This document shows positions 493 through 10,606 of a stretch of DNA of 64,000 nucleotides, piece by piece (positions within the stretch are counted from its first letter, which is position 1; each line of letters starts with the position of its first letter). The DNA is from Opitutaceae bacterium. Lineage in GTDB: Bacteria; Verrucomicrobiota; Verrucomicrobiia; Opitutales; Opitutaceae. The position numbers and the translations under genes were made by a program. Location: NCBI GenBank assembly GCA_030648295.1, contig JAUSID010000163.1, positions 124,001 through 188,000 on the forward strand, written 5' to 3'. Under the pieces are notes generated by a model, which did no database searches, was not told the origin of the DNA, and saw nothing but the letters and a program-made list of their open reading frames with translations.

Positions 493-1923
493 CTACGGAT
501 CGACGGAGATAATCACGCGCCGGTAGCTTGTGAGCGGTGGCTGGCCGCGGTCGGTCGCGGCCAGGATCACGTGAACGGTCTTCCGCCCGTCAACCACCGG
601 GGCAACCAGACCCGCCCGCGGCGAATCCGCATTTTGGATGCGCACCGCTTCGCCGTACGTTCCCGCTTCAACGTACTGCCACCAGCGATAGTCGATGGCG
701 TGACCATCGGGATCCTGCGTTCCCGCCGCATCGAGTTCCACCCGCTGGCCTGCCACCACGGTTCGATGGAGCACCCGGCGACCCGCGTCGCCGTCGACCC
801 GCACCACGGGGTGATGATTCGCTTCGCCATATCCGCGCACGCACCAGTCCATCCGCGCCGCCAGATCGTTGCTCGTCGCCTCATGCCAGCGGCCGACCGT
901 CCATTGATTTTCCCGGACCTCTTCGGTCGCATTCGGGTGCCGGTCGCGGGCGTCCACGTAATACCGCTGTTCCGGGTGAAGCCGGCGGAACCGGCCGCCC
1001 CAGCCGCCCCAGTCGGGCTGCTCGGGCTCGCCGAGGCCGGCCGCAAGCAGGTGCAGGAACGACGGCGTGTCGCCCTCCTTGATCCCGTCGGTGTTGCCGG
1101 CCTTCGGGTATTCCGCCCCCAGCGCGCCGTGGCCGCGGCGGACGTTTTCATTGACCCAGGCCTCGTTGCGCATGGCCGGCCGGCCTTCGGCATACATTCC
1201 GCGCATGGCGTTGGAACACTGGATCCGAAAAAGGTCGGGGAACTCGTTCCAAATCCAGACGGCTCCCGTGTCCTGCCAGCTGACCTGGTAGACCCGGAGC
1301 TTGCCGACAAAGCGGGCCGCCGCTTCCGCGGGGCGTTCGCCACGGATCTTCCACAGCGCCTGCGCCAAATCGATGGCGCCACCCCACACCACGACCCAGA
1401 CGGGACGCGGGTCATCCCGGTCGACGACGCGGATAATGTGCTCCGATGCCGCGGTATCCCTGCCGTTCCCAATCCATTGCTCCGCCGGGTCGCACGACCG
1501 CGAGTCACGTGCACCCGGCGGATAGGGCACGGGGAAGCCTTTCTTTGTGCCAACCAGCGTTCGGATGATCGGCGCGCCAGCCTTCACCCTCTGCTTGAGC
1601 GACTCCGCCGGCGGATAGACATATCCTGGCCGCTCGTGCCGCCGCAGGTTCTCCAGCACGGCGCCATAGGCGTCAATGAGCTGCACGATCAGTTCCGGGC
1701 GGACGGAGCCATCCCCATAGGCCAGCGAGGTCGCCAGGAGTCCCTCGACTTCGAATTCGTTGGCGCAGGTCAGGAATCGGATCATCGACTGCTTGTCATC
1801 CGGATCCTTGAAAAAGTCGGTGAGGACGATCACCCGCGGCCGTTCATCCAGCGACGCCGCCGTCGCGAGCGGCGCGAGGAACAAAAAAGCGAGATATATG
1901 ATCTGGCGCATGGCGCTCGTCAT
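493..1923 (-). CDS. DUF1593 / Sde182-like secreted protein (nucleoside hydrolase-like fold)
   Basis: The 476-residue product starts with a signal peptide (a second Met at residue 5 gives MRQIIYLAFLFLAPLATAA). The mature N-terminus reads RVIVLTDFFKDPDDKQS, the Asp-rich loop of the nucleoside-hydrolase-like Sde182 (DUF1593) family. The C-terminal 100 residues (LDAAGTQDPDGHAIDYRWW) form an Ig/PKD-like beta domain, as in the family's C-terminal domain. Sde182 was described as a cellulose-binding protein; the true substrate here is unknown. The start is set by an ATGA overlap with the upstream serine hydrolase, implying translational coupling. It is the last gene of the hydrolase chain. The family call is firm, the function is not. 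Confidence 0.85.
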   Translation of the reverse strand: MTSAMRQIIYLAFLFLAPLATAASLDERPRVIVLTDFFKDPDDKQSMIRFLTCANEFEVEGLLATSLAYGDGSVRPELIVQLIDAYGAVLENLRRHERPGYVYPPAESLKQRVKAGAPIIRTLVGTKKGFPVPYPPGARDSRSCDPAEQWIGNGRDTAASEHIIRVVDRDDPRPVWVVVWGGAIDLAQALWKIRGERPAEAAARFVGKLRVYQVSWQDTGAVWIWNEFPDLFRIQCSNAMRGMYAEGRPAMRNEAWVNENVRRGHGALGAEYPKAGNTDGIKEGDTPSFLHLLAAGLGEPEQPDWGGWGGRFRRLHPEQRYYVDARDRHPNATEEVRENQWTVGRWHEATSNDLAARMDWCVRGYGEANHHPVVRVDGDAGRRVLHRTVVAGQRVELDAAGTQDPDGHAIDYRWWQYVEAGTYGEAVRIQNADSPRAGLVAPVVDGRKTVHVILAATDRGQPPLTSYRRVIISVDP

Positions 1924-3116
1924 TGGGCCCTCGTTTGCGCTGAGGCCTCATGAGTTCCCAGGATATTCTCCTCGATCAAATGGGGAATGCCGCGGGTGGC
2001 ACCGCCGGCGTCGCGCTCGAGCCCGTGGGCGGCGTAGACGATCCCGTTGTTGCGATTCCAAAAGATCACGTTGCCGCCCGCACCCGAACCCCAGGCCCAT
2101 GCACGGTCGGCTCCCGGGAAATAATCACCGTCGGTGTTCACCCACGTCATGTAACCGTACGGCACTTCCGGGAATTTCTGCGGATCGAGCCCGATGATGC
2201 CGTCGTCCGGGCCACTGTAATTTACGCGCATTGCCTTCGTCTGCTTGCGCTCCAACTCCTCGACAAACCAGCGCGGGATGACCTGGACGCCGTTCCACTG
2301 TCCGCGCGCGAGCACCAGGAGACCGAGCCGGCCCATGTCTTCCAAATCGAGGAGCAGCCGGACGCCGTCGTCCTTTTTTTCGAACTGAATCTTCCAGCCC
2401 CGCAGGCCGATCGCGTCGAAATACGCCTGCCGCAGCACGTCCTCATAGCGGTCGTGATAATCCCGCTTGCCGTACACTTTGGCCAGCGCGTTGCACAGTC
2501 GGACCGGATTCTTGTCCGAGTAGGTCCAGATCTCGCCGGGCCGGTAATCAGGATGGTCAGCATACGGGTAGTCGAAGCCGGATGACTGCGTGATCACGTG
2601 CCACCAGGTCGCCAGCGCGTCATTTCCCGCGAGATCCTTTTCCCAGACATTCAGTTTCTGGTGATATGAAGGAATCTTCCCCTGGCCAATGGCCGCGCCG
2701 ACCGTCAGGGCGTGCCACGTCTTGCGCAGCGAGGCGACGTTGCGCTTGAAATTCCAGTCTCCCTCAACGTGGACGAGGTATCCGTTCCGCCACAACGCCC
2801 ACCGATCCGTTTTCCGGGTTCGGAGTGCATCGATGACGGCCGGCTTCAGCCCGGCTTCTCCCGGACTGCGCCGGGCCTGCACATCGAGGGGTTCGCCGGG
2901 GGGAGGAAAGAAGAACCGAGTCTCGAATGTCCCTTTCGCCTCCGCCCCGGGTGCGCCGGAAAGCATGGAGGACGCCAGCGCGACCATGGCGGCAATCAGG
3001 TTGCGTGCAGCACGGCAAAGTGGCTGCGGCTTCCAGCCGCAGATCACCGGCTGGAAGCCGGTGCCACGCAGACAAGGCGAAAGGCTGCGCTGGGGGATTT
3101 TAAGCTCGACTGTCAT
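1920..3116 (-). CDS. Serine hydrolase, beta-lactamase/esterase fold (secreted)
   Basis: The 398-residue protein belongs to the beta-lactamase-related (PF00144) serine hydrolases. The catalytic SxxK is SLRK and the tyrosine motif is YSDKN. The Gly-rich region near the C-terminus (WAWGSGAGGNVIFW) lies on the usual third strand. The start at 3116 is favoured because its ATG overlaps the TGA of the preceding gene (ATGA). From that start the first 45 residues include [15 protein letters not shown], which is the translation of a dispersed palindromic repeat, before a hydrophobic segment at MVALASSMLSG. If translation starts instead at that Met (about 2987) the repeat would be leader sequence. It is probably a periplasmic esterase or amidase acting with its neighbours (inference). 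Confidence 0.85.
   Translation of the reverse strand: MTVELKIPQRSLSPCLRGTGFQPVICGWKPQPLCRAARNLIAAMVALASSMLSGAPGAEAKGTFETRFFFPPPGEPLDVQARRSPGEAGLKPAVIDALRTRKTDRWALWRNGYLVHVEGDWNFKRNVASLRKTWHALTVGAAIGQGKIPSYHQKLNVWEKDLAGNDALATWWHVITQSSGFDYPYADHPDYRPGEIWTYSDKNPVRLCNALAKVYGKRDYHDRYEDVLRQAYFDAIGLRGWKIQFEKKDDGVRLLLDLEDMGRLGLLVLARGQWNGVQVIPRWFVEELERKQTKAMRVNYSGPDDGIIGLDPQKFPEVPYGYMTWVNTDGDYFPGADRAWAWGSGAGGNVIFWNRNNGIVYAAHGLERDAGGATRGIPHLIEENILGTHEASAQTRAQ
3020..3069. repeat. REP-like double hairpin
   Basis: Two adjacent perfect hairpins: CTGCGGCT/AGCCGCAG with a three-base loop (3024-3042), then CACCGGCT/AGCCGGTG (3045-3063). The first hairpin recurs at 52137-52160. The copy lies inside the 5' end of the serine hydrolase reading frame, where it encodes [13 protein letters not shown]. 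Confidence 0.8.
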
Positions 3117-4090
3117 TGTGTTCGTCTGTCCGTCCGCTGAATCAATACAGCCCAATCCTCGGCCGGCTCTGCCGGCGGTGGGCCCAATGCCAGAGCCCGG
3201 CCGCCGTTCACGGGCTTTGGCGCACCGACGAACGCTCCCGTGCGTGGATTGTACCAGCGTTGGATGAATTCGCCCGGAGCATTCTTTAGATCGAGCGATC
3301 CGGTCGACGTCGCGTCGGGCAGATATATTGCATAACAGTGGCCGGGCTTCGCGAATACCTGCCCGTCGTGGGTGCACGTCTTGCCTTCGCGCGTCGCCTC
3401 GCCCGTGAGCAGATCGTCCGCCGGTTCCATTTCCCAGAACGGCATGTTCTCCTCCAGGAATTTTCGCGCAAACCACATCTCGTTCCAGAGCCGCTCGTGT
3501 TTCCGAAAATCGTGCGTGTCCAGCAGGTCCTCGGTGATCACCTCGATTTGGCCCCCGGACAGATACGCCGGCCAGATCTTCTCCTTCCGGAGCGTGGTGA
3601 AGTCGTCGGTTGGCAGATGCGCCTGCTTCGCCGTCGTGACCGTGAATTCGTCCAACGCGACCGGCAACGGGCGGCCGGCTTTTCGCGTGAGCTCGCGAAA
3701 AGCCTCCACCACCGGCTCGATGTCACCGCGGCCGATCTGCAGCGACGTGAGATCAAACAGATCGCTCCCGATGAACGGCGCCCAGGCCACCTGCGGTTGC
3801 TTCGCGTGGTGCACCGTAAGCGGATGCCGATAGGGATCCAAAGCGCGAATATAGCGGGCGAACGCCATCACCGCTTCCGGTCCGAGATCGAGGTAGAGAT
3901 TGTATTCCTCGCACAGGTTCCAAAGCAGTGCGTTGTGATGTCCGAACCGGGCGATCATCTCCCGGTAGAAAAGCTTTCGCTCACGGGAAAGGGCTTTGCC
4001 GCCCAGGGTTTCCTTGTTGGGTTTTTCCGCCTCGTTGAAGACGAAGTGCAGGACGATTCCCTTGCGCTGGGCATGATCGAACACGATCTC
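3113..4090 (-). pseudogene. C-terminal half of DUF5060/DUF4038-type glycosidase, cut off by an amber codon
   Basis: This segment continues the upstream frame directly after the TAG at 4091-4093. It reads EIVFDHAQRKGIVLHF, which in this family normally follows a tryptophan (…LxQWExVFDHAQ). It holds the second half of a TIM-barrel-like domain with two candidate acidic residues (NLCEE and LDEF, by analogy with clan A glycosidases), then a beta-rich tail (WYNPRTGAFVG) like the collagen-binding-type domain that ends such proteins. A GTG at 4084, preceded by AGGAG only three bases away, could allow restart, but the product would lack half the barrel. Its TGA overlaps the start of the next hydrolase. 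It is best seen as the broken 3' part of one gene spanning 3113-5956. Confidence 0.8.
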
Positions 4091-5956
4091 CTACTGCCGG
4101 AGTTTGCCGAGATCGTAGTGCGTCGTGTCGTTGTCGGGGGAACCCTGCGGATCGATCCGGCCGGCGAAGGGCCAGACATTCTGACCATCTCCGCCTATAT
4201 TCATCGGCATGAAATAAATCAGGTTCACGTGGTGCGCGGCCAGATAGTTGAGCGCACCGATGAAGCCCTTGCCCTTGCCTCCGCCCCAGTCGGGGTCGCC
4301 GGGTTGCCAGTCGCGGACATGCCCGCCGTAGTCGGTTACGGCAAACTTGCCCGAGCGCGTGTGGTCGAATCCGCTGTAGGCGAGCAGATCCTCGGGCTCG
4401 TCGGTGCCGCCCTTGATCCAGTATGGACCGCTCCGGAACTTGAGATAAAAGCCGTGCGCGTATTCGAGCCGGCCATACCGGAGAAACTCCGGACCGTCCC
4501 GGAGCGCTCTTTCTATGTCCAAGGTGCCTTTCACCCCATCGAATGCCGCCGGCTGTCCGGACGCCGGATTCAGATCCACCGCGATGTCGGGACCGGAGCG
4601 GAAGCTTGCGATATAAGACCATTGGCCCCGCCGGGGCGGGGTGAAGCGAACGCGCCAGATATCGCCGCGCCCCCCGCCACTCCCGTCGCCATCGAAAAAC
4701 CCGGGAACGCGGAGCTGCGTGCCGTCTGGACCCGTGAAGGTCACCGTCAGTCGGTAATCGAGGAACGGGTTTGGAGCCTCGTCGGTTTCGCCGGCCGCGG
4801 GACCCCGGAAACTGACGGTGAGCGGATGCCAGACGCGCGCCTCGCCTTCGACCACCGAATCATATAGGGCGGTGCCGACCCTTCGGAGGAATTCATTATA
4901 GGTTGATCGCGGGATCGGGTACCCACCATTCCTTTGCTCTCCGTCCAGTCCGAGCCGGACGATCACCACGCCCCATGCCGGCACGACAAACAGGGCGTTA
5001 TTGTTGTGTCCGCTCCTCATGTAGGTTCCGTGCGGTGCGTCCGGCCACGGGCGGGTTCCATCGGGCCGGGTTCCATTCGGCCACCAGTGATAGCCGTAGA
5101 TGCCCGAGCCCTTTCGGTCGCTGGAGGGGAGGGCATCGGGAATCGATGGCGGCACCTGCACGCTCGTCGCGTCATCCACCCACCGGGTGCTGATGAGCTG
5201 CTTTCCATTCCACTGGCCGCGGTTGAGGAACAGATGACCGAAGCGTGCCAGGTCGCTCGCGGAAATCTCGAGTCCACCGGTCCAGTTTGGAATATTCTTC
5301 TTGGTGTCGTCCTGTTGCCAACGCACCGCCGTCATCCCGATCGGGCCGAGGATTCGCCGTTGCAGCAAATCGGGCAGCGGTTCGCCGGCGATCTTTGTCA
5401 GTACGAAGCCATAGTGCTGGGTGGCTTCGTCCCAATACTGATATTTGGTCCCGGGTGGGAAGAAGGGACGCGCCGGCTCGACGAGCGCATTCGCGTCGCC
5501 GCGACCCTCAGCATCGCGGTCGTAAGAGCCGCCCTCGCCATCGATGCCCGATGTCATGGTGGCCAGATGCCGCAGGTTGACGGCAGGATAGTATGCGGCC
5601 AGTTGCGGGTTGTGGTCCCTGGCCAGTGTTTCGAGCGTGCACTTGCCGTCGTCGTCCAGCAGCCCATGCGCGGTGCTCGTGAACGCCTTGCTGACCGACC
5701 ACACACGATGGCGCCGATCGGCTTCCGGACCCTGCCAGATGATTCGACCGTGGCGGACGATCACGAGTCGCTTCACGCCGTCGCGTGGGGTGTTCTCCTC
5801 CAGGTACCGGACGGCATCTTGCAGCCGTTCCGAGTCGACGTTCTGCGATTGCGGCGACGCGATTTCCCATTGGTCACCGGGAAAGGCCATGGAGGCGCCT
5901 TGGCCGGTAGCGGCCAGCAACACACCGGTCGCCAGACATACGGAAAAAAGTCTCAT
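4091..5956 (-). CDS. Serine hydrolase fused to DUF5060 and start of a glycosidase barrel (truncated by TAG)
   Basis: The start at 5956 gives a signal peptide (MRLFSVCLATGVLLAATGQGA); starts further upstream would read into a dispersed repeat. Residues about 30-365 are a beta-lactamase-fold serine hydrolase with SVSK (Ser87, Lys90) and a late HGTYMRSGHNN segment. Residues about 370-455 are a DUF5060 beta-sandwich (PGFFDGDG, RFTPPRRGQWSY). A DUF4038-like barrel begins near residue 487 and is interrupted after residue 621 by TAG, where a conserved Trp (TGG) is expected. Without the stop the protein would have about 947 residues. Either the gene is recently inactivated or the base is an error. 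Fusion of an esterase-like and a glycosidase domain suggests removal of ester substituents from a glycan (inference). Confidence 0.8.
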   Translation of the reverse strand: MRLFSVCLATGVLLAATGQGASMAFPGDQWEIASPQSQNVDSERLQDAVRYLEENTPRDGVKRLVIVRHGRIIWQGPEADRRHRVWSVSKAFTSTAHGLLDDDGKCTLETLARDHNPQLAAYYPAVNLRHLATMTSGIDGEGGSYDRDAEGRGDANALVEPARPFFPPGTKYQYWDEATQHYGFVLTKIAGEPLPDLLQRRILGPIGMTAVRWQQDDTKKNIPNWTGGLEISASDLARFGHLFLNRGQWNGKQLISTRWVDDATSVQVPPSIPDALPSSDRKGSGIYGYHWWPNGTRPDGTRPWPDAPHGTYMRSGHNNNALFVVPAWGVVIVRLGLDGEQRNGGYPIPRSTYNEFLRRVGTALYDSVVEGEARVWHPLTVSFRGPAAGETDEAPNPFLDYRLTVTFTGPDGTQLRVPGFFDGDGSGGGRGDIWRVRFTPPRRGQWSYIASFRSGPDIAVDLNPASGQPAAFDGVKGTLDIERALRDGPEFLRYGRLEYAHGFYLKFRSGPYWIKGGTDEPEDLLAYSGFDHTRSGKFAVTDYGGHVRDWQPGDPDWGGGKGKGFIGALNYLAAHHVNLIYFMPMNIGGDGQNVWPFAGRIDPQGSPDNDTTHYDLGKLRQ

Positions 5957-6025
5957 GGGATCAGGAATCGAGAATATGCGGTGACTCTGAGCGTGAGCGA
6001 GGTGTGAAAACCGGCAAACTTCGTC

Positions 6026-6110
6026 TGTCATCCTGAGCGCAGCGAAGGATCCAGCAGGATGAACGCATCCTGAAGAGCTACTGGATTCTTCGCTGGCGCT
6101 CAGAATGACA
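6026..6110. repeat. Dispersed inverted repeat, TGTCAT...ATGACA family, copy 1
   Basis: An 85-base imperfect inverted repeat. The left arm begins TGTCATCCTGAGCG and carries GAAGGATCCAG; the right arm carries CTGGATTCTTCGC and ends CTCAGAATGACA. Two more copies lie at 20655-20750 and 62783-62868. Repeats with these arms are, from memory, common in several bacterial phyla. This copy is the core of the gap between the TonB receptor and the hydrolase fusion (5957-6203). Confidence 0.85.
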
Positions 6111-6203
6111 CGCTGGCGGGCGAATGGATCAAGGCGACGGTCTTTTCACGGAACCTGATGAGCGCAGAGAGAACTCGCGGCGAGCCACGGATGAACGTTA
6201 CAC

Positions 6204-9200
6204 TCAGAACGTGCCTCTGATCCCGAGCGTCCAGATCGACCCGTAGTGGGAATACTGGCGGTCCCACTCGTGCCCATCGGGCGTCACCTGGGCTTCGACC
6301 TCGACCTCATTCGTGATGTTCTTGCCGATGATGAACAGGCTGGTGTTCTGCGCCAGCTTGAAGTCGAGGTTCGCCGCGATCGACGTGTATTCCCGGCGGA
6401 ATTGATACTGGTTGCTTCTCGGGGTGTCCGGGTACCAGGAAACATTGGCGCCCAGACCAAGCCGGCGGTAGCGGAAACTGAATCCACCCTTGATGTGGTG
6501 CGGCGCCACACCGCTTTTCCGGGTGGTGGAGAGCGTGCGGGTGTAGTTGGCGTAGATACCCAGCCCCCTGAAGATGCCGGGCAGGAACGCGAGCTGCTGC
6601 CGGTAGTCGACTTCATAGCCCTTCAGACGTCGCTTGCCTGACCCGCTCGCCTGCGTACGAAAGATGTAGTCGAAGTAGAACGGATCATCGACGCCGAATT
6701 CCTCCGCGGTGTATTCGTGCGCCTCGCGCATGTTTTCAACGTTGGTTTGGAACGCGCCAATCCCCAGATGGCCCACCGGCTCGAAATAATACTCCAGCCG
6801 GGTCATGTATTTCTCCGTGTTCTCCGGCAGGAGCCCCGGATTCGGCACCGACACGATCAACGCATCCTCGTTGACCGCCCAAAGGCCGCTGACGTGGTTG
6901 AAGCCCGGACGCTGGATGGCCTGGTTGTAGCCGAAGTGCGCCATGAGATTGGGACGGATATCGTATTTGGCCGAAAACGTCGGAAAGAAATTGTCGTACT
7001 GGCCGGTGCGGATGACGCGGGGGCGGGAGCGGTACCGGTATTCCAGGCCGGCAATGGTGCTCGCCTCGTTGCCGGACACGGGAAACCCCGCTTCCCGGAC
7101 CTGGGAGAGGAGCAGCGGATCGTATTCCTTCGAAGCCGTCTTCGTTTCCTCCCAGCGCAGGCCGGTTTGCATGCGGAGACGGCCCAGCTTGGCAAATCCC
7201 ATGATATAGGCGGCATTGACCTGCTCTTCGTAGTCCTTGTCGCTCTTTATATAGGAGTTCACCCACTGGGTGGCCGTGGTTGTCTCCCGGAACCACTCGG
7301 GGTGCGCTTTGAACGCCTCGGTGATCGCCGGCCGGCTCGGAAAGCTGGGTGGAAGACCGGACGTGGTGCCCCAAAACTTCGCGAACGGATGCTTGGTCAG
7401 GGCCGGCGAGATAAAGTTCATCGGCGTGGCGGGATCCCCATAGCTGCCGGTCGTGCCTCCGCCTGGGCCGACATAGGCCCATTTCAGCGCATCGAATAAG
7501 CTGATGTAGTCCCGCACCTGTTCATTCGATTTGATGCCGACCTTCAGCCAGGTGGGAAATCTCAGCGGCAGATCGTACCTGGCGTTCAGCGTCCCGGTGA
7601 AAATCTGATGCTTGCCGTCGCGGTATTCGTCACCAATCCCCGGATTCTTGAAGCTCGCAGGATCATTCCAGTCGGGTCCGCTGGTCTGGCGGATCACCCA
7701 GTCGGTGGTGTTGGGCGATGAACGCTCGGCGCGAAAATTGACGCCCGCCAGGTTCGCCTGGGTGAAGCCGCTGACATAACCCTCCTCGATGCCGCGGATG
7801 GTGCTCAGGGACGCGGAATAGGACAACCGGCCGTCGACCAGCAGCCGTCCCCGCTTGTATTCGAAACCTGGGGATACACTCAGCGAGTCGCCAAGCTTTT
7901 GAAAACCGCGGCCGGCATTGTTCTGGACGAACCGGTTGGCGTCCGTCGACGGTCCGGTCTCCAGCACCGTCAGGCCATCGCCACGCACGGTCGCGCGTCC
8001 GTTGACGGTGTTGTTGTTCGCCGAAAACTGGAAGTTCAACGTGTGGTTGGACGAACGGAACTCGGAGTAATTGTAGCTCGCGCGGAGCGACAGCGCGAGG
8101 TGCGGCGTGGCCTTGAAGTCAATCGTCGCTGCGACGCTGCCGCGTTCGGAAGTGCGAGGGTTGTCCTGATAGGAGAGCTGGTTGATCACCACCGGGCGCG
8201 GATCGCCGGCTTCCGGTGTCGTGCTCACGCGCGGCACCACCCGCTGCTCCTGGGAAAAGGAGGTCGACCGGCTGAGCGTCGCGATCACGCCGAGCCGGCG
8301 GTCGAGAAAGACATCGGAGTAGGAGATGCTCCCGCCGGGTTTGACCCGGCGGTGTTTCTCGTCGTCGAGACCGTATACCCGGTTCAGATGGAACTCGGTT
8401 GAATTGGCGAGGGCCGAGAGCTGCCAGGAAATGTGGCGGCCCTTGCGATCGAAGGCCCGTCGCATCCGCATGTTGACCGTGCCGGCGGGTGCATCCGCGT
8501 CCAGGTCGGCGCTGTTTGTCTTGAAGACCTCGATTGACTCGATGCTGCTGAGCGACACGTCCGTCAAGGCGACCTGGCGCGAACTGTCGCCGGCAGCCGT
8601 GTTCGCGGTGCCCAGGAACTGTACATAGGCATCGCCGCTGGGCACGCGCTCGCCATCGACGGTCACGGCGGTGTACTCCGGATCCATGCCCTGGATGCGG
8701 ATGGCCCGCGGCTGATCCGCGCTGAACTCGATGTCCACGCCGGGCAGATATTTCAAAAACTCGCCCGGGTTGTCCTCGTGAATGTTCCCGAACACGTCGG
8801 AGGCGACGACGTTGGAAACGTTCATGTTTTTCCGCTGATCCATGATCGCCTTGGCATTCCCCTCGCGGTCGGCCGACACGACGAACTCGCCGAGCTTCAC
8901 CACCGCTCCGTCGGCGCCCCTGGTCTCGGTACTGATGAGGTTGAAATCCTGCTGGGAAGTCTGGCCGGCTTGCACCTGCACCGAAGCGGGAGCGGCATGA
9001 TACCCCGTATAGGTGACCTTTAGGGTTACCGCGCCGGGCGGAAGATTCGGGAGCGTATATTGGCCGCCGTCCGTCGAAACCGCCGATTGATTGGTGCCCG
9101 CCACGACAATCTCCGCGTTGCGGACGTACTCACCGGTGGCGGGATTAAAGACGCGTCCGGAGATCGTGCCGGTGGAGGGCGTTTGCGCCGCAATGGAACT

Positions 9201-9242
9201 GGCGAGCGCGAACGCGGCGAGGAGGCTCAGGGTCTGCTTCAT
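6204..9242 (-). CDS. TonB-dependent outer membrane receptor
   Basis: The 1012-residue protein has a signal peptide (MKQTLSLLAAFALASSIAAQ). It is followed by a carboxypeptidase-regulatory-like beta-sandwich (about 28-110, GTISGRVFNPATGEYV), a plug domain (about 130-250, with GEFLKYLPGVDIEF and IRIQGMDPEYTAVTVDGE) and a 22-strand-type barrel ending in a terminal Phe (LGIRGTF). It should import a bulky glycan or other large ligand using TonB energy. No SusD-like gene is adjacent. The start at 9242 is chosen because the signal peptide begins there. It is divergent from the XylR-type regulator and upstream of the secreted hydrolases on the same strand, which suggests import of their products. Confidence 0.93.
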   Translation of the reverse strand: MKQTLSLLAAFALASSIAAQTPSTGTISGRVFNPATGEYVRNAEIVVAGTNQSAVSTDGGQYTLPNLPPGAVTLKVTYTGYHAAPASVQVQAGQTSQQDFNLISTETRGADGAVVKLGEFVVSADREGNAKAIMDQRKNMNVSNVVASDVFGNIHEDNPGEFLKYLPGVDIEFSADQPRAIRIQGMDPEYTAVTVDGERVPSGDAYVQFLGTANTAAGDSSRQVALTDVSLSSIESIEVFKTNSADLDADAPAGTVNMRMRRAFDRKGRHISWQLSALANSTEFHLNRVYGLDDEKHRRVKPGGSISYSDVFLDRRLGVIATLSRSTSFSQEQRVVPRVSTTPEAGDPRPVVINQLSYQDNPRTSERGSVAATIDFKATPHLALSLRASYNYSEFRSSNHTLNFQFSANNNTVNGRATVRGDGLTVLETGPSTDANRFVQNNAGRGFQKLGDSLSVSPGFEYKRGRLLVDGRLSYSASLSTIRGIEEGYVSGFTQANLAGVNFRAERSSPNTTDWVIRQTSGPDWNDPASFKNPGIGDEYRDGKHQIFTGTLNARYDLPLRFPTWLKVGIKSNEQVRDYISLFDALKWAYVGPGGGTTGSYGDPATPMNFISPALTKHPFAKFWGTTSGLPPSFPSRPAITEAFKAHPEWFRETTTATQWVNSYIKSDKDYEEQVNAAYIMGFAKLGRLRMQTGLRWEETKTASKEYDPLLLSQVREAGFPVSGNEASTIAGLEYRYRSRPRVIRTGQYDNFFPTFSAKYDIRPNLMAHFGYNQAIQRPGFNHVSGLWAVNEDALIVSVPNPGLLPENTEKYMTRLEYYFEPVGHLGIGAFQTNVENMREAHEYTAEEFGVDDPFYFDYIFRTQASGSGKRRLKGYEVDYRQQLAFLPGIFRGLGIYANYTRTLSTTRKSGVAPHHIKGGFSFRYRRLGLGANVSWYPDTPRSNQYQFRREYTSIAANLDFKLAQNTSLFIIGKNITNEVEVEAQVTPDGHEWDRQYSHYGSIWTLGIRGTF

Positions 9243-9388
9243 GATTTGGGGCTGGGCTGGTCGGCCGGAGAAGCCGCCCCGGGGACCGGTGCCGTGGCTG
9301 GCGGGCGCCGTTGGGGCAGCACCCATCAAACCAGTTCACCGCCGGATCGTCATTGAAGCTTTGCGGAAAAATCTTGTGCTTCTGCGTC
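9243..9388. promoter_or_regulatory. Divergent promoter region between TonB receptor and XylR-type regulator
   Basis: The two divergent starts are 146 bases apart, so both promoters and any operator must lie here or in the adjacent 5' coding ends. No convincing sigma-70 pair or long palindrome was found by eye, and no Shine-Dalgarno sequence precedes either start. Confidence 0.5.
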
Positions 9389-10606
9389 ATGGTCAAACCG
9401 CGTGCCCCCCGCCGCGTCGGCGGCCGCGACGGACCGGCGCGGTTGCCGCTGGCCCGCGTGGCCCTGCTGATCGAGTCGTCACGCGCCTTCGGGCGCGGTG
9501 TGTTGGACGGCATCGCCGAGTGCCTGCGGCGGCAGCGGTGGCTGGTGTACTACCAGGAGGGTGGCCTCGGAGAACTGCTGCCGAAATGGTTCGGCGCCTG
9601 GCAGGGCGACGGCATTATTGCACGGATCGAGGATCGGCGGATGGCCCGCATCCTCGCGCAGAAGGGTATTCCCATCGTGGATATCCGGGGGGTCTGCGCG
9701 GTTCCCGGCGTGCCGGTCGTCAAGACGGACAACACGGAAATTGCGCGGCTCGCCGCCGTGCACCTGCGCAATTGTGGCCTCGAGCACTTTGGCTACTGCG
9801 GCTACGAGGGGGCCGAATATTCGAACAAGCGGGGCGAGGTGTTCGCCGGGTTCATCCGCGAAGCGGGTTTCCCTTGCCGCGTGTTCACGACGCGGGAACG
9901 GCGGCTCGCCGGCGTCCGCTCGCAAGAGCAGTTTGGATGGGCGCACGAGGACCATTTGATTGAGTGGCTGCGGAGCCTGCCGAAACCGGTCGGGGTGATG
10001 GCCTGCAACGACGCGCGCGGCCACCAGCTCCTGAACGCGGCCCGGCAGCTGGGCATTGCCGTTCCCGGTGAGCTGGCCGTCATCGGGGTCGACAACCACG
10101 AGACGATTTGCGAACTGGCGGTGCCGCCGTTGTCGAGCGTGGAACAGAACACGGGCGCCATCGCGCGCGAAGCCGTCGCCCTGCTCGAACGGATGATGCG
10201 CGGCCAGCCGCCGCCCGCCGCCCCGCTGCTGGTGAAGCCCTGCAAGGTCGTGCCGCGGCGTTCGACGGACGTGCTGGCCGTGCCCGATCGAAACCTGCGG
10301 AAGGCGATTGTGTGCATTCGGAATCAAACCGCGCGGGGCGTGGGCGAGATCGCGAAGATTGCCGGCGTGTCGCGGCGGGATCTCGAGCGGCGGTTCGCCG
10401 CCGTCTTCGGGCACTCGCCCGGGCAGGAGGTGCTCGCCGTCCAACTCCAGACGGTGAAGAAGCTGCTGACGGAGACGGACTGGCCGCTGTACCGCGTGGC
10501 GGAAAAGGCCGGCTTTCGTCACCCGGAATATCTGAACGTGGCCTTCAAGCGGCAGACCGGAATGACTCCCCGCAGCTATCGGCTGCAACTGAGGCGCCCG
10601 GCTTGA
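9389..10606 (+). CDS. XylR-type transcriptional regulator (sugar-binding domain + AraC HTH)
   Basis: The 405-residue protein has the architecture of XylR. A LacI/ribose-binding-like ligand domain occupies about residues 20-290 (VALLIESSRAFGRGVLDGI, VMACNDARGHQLLNAARQLGI, VIGVDNHETICELAVPPLSSVEQN). A C-terminal AraC helix-turn-helix pair spans about 300-405 (GVGEIAKIAGVSRRDLERRF, VAEKAGFRHPEYLNVAFKRQTGMTPRSYR). There is no N-terminal LacI DNA-binding domain. The start at the ATG in MVKPRAPRR is chosen because the upstream extension shows no similarity to the family. It likely senses a pentose or related sugar and controls the divergent TonB receptor and/or the catabolic genes downstream (inference from position). 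Confidence 0.9.
   Translation: MVKPRAPRRVGGRDGPARLPLARVALLIESSRAFGRGVLDGIAECLRRQRWLVYYQEGGLGELLPKWFGAWQGDGIIARIEDRRMARILAQKGIPIVDIRGVCAVPGVPVVKTDNTEIARLAAVHLRNCGLEHFGYCGYEGAEYSNKRGEVFAGFIREAGFPCRVFTTRERRLAGVRSQEQFGWAHEDHLIEWLRSLPKPVGVMACNDARGHQLLNAARQLGIAVPGELAVIGVDNHETICELAVPPLSSVEQNTGAIAREAVALLERMMRGQPPPAAPLLVKPCKVVPRRSTDVLAVPDRNLRKAIVCIRNQTARGVGEIAKIAGVSRRDLERRFAAVFGHSPGQEVLAVQLQTVKKLLTETDWPLYRVAEKAGFRHPEYLNVAFKRQTGMTPRSYRLQLRRPA

Follow-up and report, generated by a model that had tools for sequence, protein, structure and literature searches.

The stretch of 64,000 nucleotides considered here (the window) belongs to an Opitutaceae bacterium (GenBank assembly GCA_030648295.1, contig JAUSID010000163.1, positions 124,001 to 188,000). 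The draft genome (G000) amounts to 9.12 Mb in 294 contigs, with 96.59% completeness and 4.02% contamination, and the window corresponds to C245:124001-188000 in our contig numbering. On the minus strand, positions 3113..5956 hold a fusion gene for a PF00144 serine hydrolase and a DUF5060/(β/α)8 glycosidase ending in a C-terminal β domain; this gene is interrupted by an in-frame TAG codon at 4091..4093 (C245:128091-128093).

The minus-strand frame extends from 6031 to 3113 and counts 972 codons, the TAG at residue 647 (translated as X) being its sole internal stop. The frame is open upstream to 6031, but the start codon is probably at 5956 (residue 26, a choice made by eye), which gives 947 residues, the approximate full length that a preliminary description of the locus had proposed. 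Positions 4100-4082 of the minus strand read CCGGCAGTAGGAGATCGTG: the TAG (4093-4091) is followed by GAG ATC GTG, and the translation goes from HYDLGKLRQ to EIVFDHAQRKG without any shift, as that description had reported. Both sides of the TAG are coding: PF00144 and DUF5060 are recognised before it, and related proteins align continuously across it. Codon scores average 0.215 per codon before the TAG and 0.246 after it, and the G+C content at third codon positions is similar on both sides.

The serine hydrolase domain (β-lactamase fold, residues 89-359, 4955..5767) matches PF00144 with an E-value of 1.3e-27 and 97.3 bits, against a curated cut-off of 27. NCBIfam beta-lactamase models also match this half, with scores far under their cut-offs. 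The DUF5060 domain (PF16586, residues 398-477, 4601..4840) follows with an E-value of 3.8e-21 and 75.6 bits, for a cut-off of 27.2. The TAG splits the next domain, a (β/α)8 barrel whose approximate limits (3446..4507) were transferred from a model of an intact relative, L071. At the C-terminus, residues 889-964 (3140..3367) give a weak match to PF12904 (Collagen_bind_2; 19.7 bits, below the 22-bit cut-off), a profile matched at E ≤ 0.01 by 26 of 27 glycosidase relatives. The DUF5060/DUF4038 label given in the preliminary description thus holds for DUF5060 only. DUF4038, which we take to be the present Pfam family "Apiosidase" (PF13204, GH140), has no match in the interrupted protein, and one of the 27 relatives matches it (E 0.00043). 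No NCBIfam model matches the part after the TAG or any of these 27 relatives, and Rfam gave no match on the window or on loci L166 and L167.

The preliminary description held that the interrupted position normally carries tryptophan. The frame, with its stop written as X, was compared by tblastn with 96 fetched loci, 69 of which cover residue 647 (one gene, present as L049 and L094, being counted twice). Tryptophan occupies this position in 67 of the 69, and in all 28 loci of at least 45% identity; the two others, with methionine and leucine, are remote paralogues from the same genome (23-25% identity). The column is also invariant in the 27-member alignment, and the window's TAG differs by one base from the tryptophan codon of the relatives. 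None of the 69 covering loci has a stop at residue 647. In a family search of 252 genomes (E ≤ 1e-60, at most three candidates scored per genome), a single match spanning both halves was found only in the genome of the window.

The position of the stop in the fold was deduced from an AlphaFold model of L071, based on an alignment of 27 sequences (mean predicted local distance difference test score of 92.5). The tryptophan equivalent to residue 647, W265 of the model, lies inside a helix (259-274) between strands of the barrel. Two pairs of acidic residues, invariant in the 27 relatives, come after the TAG: E708-E709, in a W-N-x-x-E-E-Y-N motif (3905..3910), is the candidate acid/base, and D794-E795 (3647..3652) the candidate nucleophile. 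Since these putative catalytic residues follow the TAG and the barrel is broken, a protein terminated there is not expected to work as a glycosidase, although the hydrolase domain and DUF5060 are both complete in it.

The part of the gene beyond the stop has not decayed. In a 28-row glycosidase alignment (the window copy and 27 relatives), the window copy retains 68 of the 70 near-invariant columns that precede the TAG and 74 of the 75 that follow it, which is inside the range of the other rows, and its terminal branch measures 0.453 before the TAG and 0.314 after it. Neither the columns and branch lengths of this alignment nor the codon score show relaxed constraint after the TAG. The stop is therefore recent, or an error, or tolerated.

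We favor, with moderate confidence, the explanation that the TAG is a recent nonsense allele, seen in one genome, which abolishes the glycosidase but leaves the hydrolase. The TAG would replace the tryptophan codon of a hydrolase-DUF5060 glycosidase fusion gene that is intact in other bacteria, and translation would end after 646 codons, or 621 if counted from the probable start. What is made would comprise the hydrolase, DUF5060 and only the first part of the barrel, and glycosidase activity would be lost. The hydrolase may still be made; this reading presumes a correct base, efficient termination, and a truncated protein that is secreted and folds. As in a pseudogene, the frame is interrupted within a conserved domain. 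The presence of other interruptions in the same genome (a TGA on C266, a TAG on C156 and a frameshift on C93) also speaks for a nonsense allele, as do stops at tryptophan positions of related glycosidases in genomes G063 and G059, and damage to the glycosidase half in three of seven close relatives. Several points weigh against it. It rests on an assembly consensus, in which a base error is possible; the constraint kept downstream is equally expected of a base error or of an allele that is still read through; stops at tryptophan in several relatives could mean that they are tolerated; the closest relatives, at about 64-66% identity, are too distant for a ratio of nonsynonymous to synonymous substitution rates; and the stop screen covered 1.11 of the 9.12 Mb.

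This screen, which was conservative and considered same-frame stops only, was applied to 1,114,294 bases and gave 15 candidates: the TAG of the window, a TGA at C266:143248 and 13 that were assigned to neighboring genes. In these 13, a start codon occurs 0-14 codons past the stop, and the proteins on either side differ by eye in the seven cases displayed. An earlier version of the screen, trained on all long frames, had produced 21 candidates and was dropped. The TGA at G000:C266:143248 lies within the receiver domain of a hybrid histidine kinase, whose domain assignment was confirmed. Outside the screen, an apiosidase-family gene (G000:C156:5-763) carries a TAG close to a contig end, and another (G000:C93:21451-22453) is frameshifted.

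In the family genomes, 66 glycosidase matches (of 70 rows) include 16 flagged with stops, 12 terminal and four internal. The four internal stops are that of the window, one in G063 and two in G059, each at a different tryptophan, so the window's stop is one of several in related glycosidases. In G063, the TAG of L224 (contig C43) replaces Trp 704, and tryptophan is found there in 68 of 70 other loci. In G059, L220 (contig C4) has a TGA at the tryptophan aligned to residue 849, conserved in 19 of 20 others, and L219 (contig C1) has a frameshift and a TAG at the tryptophan aligned to residue 778, conserved in 14 of 14 others; the last two figures come from motif look-ups. An impression of recurrent stops gained from six flagged relatives was abandoned: the stops of L020, L022, L023, L024 and L026 are C-terminal, and L029 has no internal stop. 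Of the 98 transitions that would create a stop in the interrupted gene, 54 fall in tryptophan codons, so that a stop falling on tryptophan is no coincidence, and four out of four is unsurprising. In the PF13204 control, run on the same 252 genomes, a stop (TAG in both cases) occurs in two of the 150 matches listed, over a shorter span; the stop rates per residue are similar in the two families.

The most serious alternative, clearly less probable than a nonsense allele but with a real chance of being right, is that the gene of the organism is intact, and that the TAG is either an erroneous base call in the consensus or a base of a minority strain that the assembler retained. The one-base difference from the tryptophan codon of the relatives and the constraint kept on both sides are as this explanation predicts, and the assembly is a contaminated draft in many contigs with isolated interruptions elsewhere in its fetched part, one of them near a contig end. 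G059 also illustrates the problem: this genome is 69% complete, both its copies among the matches listed are broken, one being frameshifted as well, and this looks like sequence error. However, the contig measures 207 kb and the TAG of the window lies 79 kb inside it, counted from the nearer end; the change is a substitution rather than an indel in a homopolymer; and few interruptions were found. The additional stops in the family fit pseudogenes and base errors alike, and therefore leave the odds between the two unchanged. Thus, of the four options raised in the preliminary description, a fresh pseudogene and a sequencing error both remain and are indistinguishable here, while the read-through switch and the split gene are unsupported.

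A functional leaky amber codon, yielding mostly the hydrolase alone with a little full-length protein, is improbable. The constraint kept past the TAG and the single stops in otherwise open frames of related glycosidases would fit it, and near-cognate decoding of UAG occurs generally at a low rate. However, no suppressor transfer RNA (tRNA) was found: ARAGORN called no CTA, TTA or TCA anticodon at 71 RF00005 places or on the fetched contigs. Individual examination of seven RF00005 places, of three gaps in a tRNA-gene array on contig C17 and of C244:1920 gave no CTA either; the anticodon was unreadable at C244:1920 and in a reverse-strand call in one C17 gap, and another gap gave no call. With 96.59% of the genome present, a CTA tRNA could be missing from the assembly. 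The local RNA fold at the TAG also argues against functional read-through, as it is ordinary (z of -0.28). Five matches to a suppressor-tRNA consensus pattern were discarded, none being a tRNA (the reversed control pattern gave eight). The C17 array (L158, G000:C17:213-2104) closely resembles a second one (L201, G000:C181:25486-27843): each has 14 ARAGORN calls and sits at a contig end, and the gaps of the C17 array hold further tRNA-like units.

A split gene, in which translation restarts at the GTG two codons past the TAG and the two fragments assemble, is very unlikely. The sequence TAGGAG does precede the GTG (4082..4084) by three bases, as the preliminary description had pointed out, and the codons past the TAG are coding. 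At the place aligned with this GTG, many relatives have valine. However, three nucleotides between AGGAG and GTG are few for a ribosome-binding site. The break falls inside a helix of the modeled barrel, a restart at this GTG would begin mid-barrel, and the second fragment would have no signal peptide, whereas the first half, judged by eye, seems to carry one. The preliminary description had also considered that the orthologues might all be divided at this point; none of the 69 loci is. No other copy among those fetched has a stop here, and the relatives with two genes (L077, L087 and L094) break between the halves instead.

That this genome decodes TAG as an amino acid is the least credible proposal: a second in-frame TAG, in the C156 gene near its contig end, is in its favor, but TAG terminates 139 of the 634 coding-like open reading frames in the fetched 1.11 Mb of the genome, and is thus not rare as a terminator, no CTA anticodon was called, and other genes are interrupted by TGA or by a frameshift. 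The earlier judgment that general recoding is unlikely, which invoked TAG as the ordinary stop at 493, 12478 and 42722 of the window, is borne out on both counts.

The relatives of the interrupted gene combine the two enzymes in several ways. Among 35 loci from GTDB genomes, classified by the layout of hydrolase and glycosidase, 12 have a single frame in the hydrolase-glycosidase order (L097 runs off its contig), four a single frame in the reverse order (L084, L086, L089 and L091) and three separate adjoining genes (L077, L087 and L094), while 13 show a glycosidase match only, some of them cut by contig ends. The last three are a frameshifted fusion (L073), a fusion without residues about 392-690 (L098) and a hydrolase with no glycosidase match (L099). 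The glycosidase at L049, in a genome of the same family (G222), is equal to that of L094 in identity, span and motif. The paired hydrolases are either near to that of the window (44-70% identity) or far from it (23-28%), and they are fused in both orders or adjoining. This repeated pairing of a hydrolase with a DUF5060 glycosidase suggests that the two act jointly.

The hydrolase half is close to that of the window (44-70%) in seven of these loci (L071, L072, L073, L090, L097, L098 and L099), and in three of the seven the glycosidase half is damaged: L073 is frameshifted, L098 has an in-frame internal deletion and L099 has no match. In L098 (4567-6399), about 300 codons are deleted, so that the hydrolase runs from its end directly into the middle part of the barrel. 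The loss in three of seven is a lead rather than a result, as all seven loci come from metagenome-assembled genomes and L097 is cut by a contig end. If the stop in the window is real, it fits a pattern in which the hydrolase half is kept and the glycosidase half is lost. One may speculate, at long odds, that it is a tolerated leaky switch giving mainly the hydrolase by itself with traces of the complete fusion, and that it is one of several ways (stop at tryptophan, deletion, frameshift, split) in which the glycosidase half is repeatedly uncoupled.

The neighborhood of the gene looks like a carbohydrate-use cluster. It includes a Sde182-type nucleoside-hydrolase-like protein (493-1923), a protein whose PF00144 match is slightly below the cut-off (1920-3299), a TonB-dependent receptor (6204-9329) and a XylR-type regulator (9311-10606), together with a BKACE enzyme, a protein of the Asp/Glu racemase family and a major facilitator superfamily transporter. 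Two inverted-repeat-like stretches were noticed by eye, at 6010-6115, upstream of the interrupted gene, and at 3013-3075, within the first part of the next hydrolase frame.

The closest known systems are the hydrolase-DUF5060 glycosidase fusions L071, L090, L097 and L072, which have the same domain order, with 44-70% identity in the hydrolase half and 50-66% in the glycosidase half, but have tryptophan where the window has TAG; L097 differs also in running off its contig. An automatic gene caller would report two genes or a pseudogene in the window where these relatives have one gene; outside annotation, the stop is of little consequence. At the level of the fold, the glycosidase half, as represented by the L071 model, resembles the GH140 apiosidase 8t9w, which is the best match in VIA-align (Z of 32.2, 376 aligned residues, 2.8 Å), and the putative glycoside hydrolase 4n0r, which is aligned over more of the length (Z of 29.3, 462 residues, 2.8 Å); many GH5 enzymes come next. 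However, 8t9w and 4n0r are only 17-18% identical to L071, and the window protein does not match PF13204. The predicted structure thus shares its fold with GH140, but a shared fold is not family membership.

The interruption itself can be compared with the nonsense-interrupted bacterial genes and recent pseudogenes treated by Belinky et al. (2021, PMC7918605). That study argues that some in-frame stops of bacteria are functional and let a little full-length protein be made by read-through, and it requires a stop at the same site in other copies, to set sequencing errors aside. None of the 69 covering loci provides such a copy, and in G063 and G059 the stops occupy different sites. The window's site is hit in one genome, which distinguishes it from the cases treated there, but it likewise combines a single in-frame stop with constraint kept around it. 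The interruption looks like a commonplace recent mutation or an error in the sequence, rather than a novel mode of reading genes.
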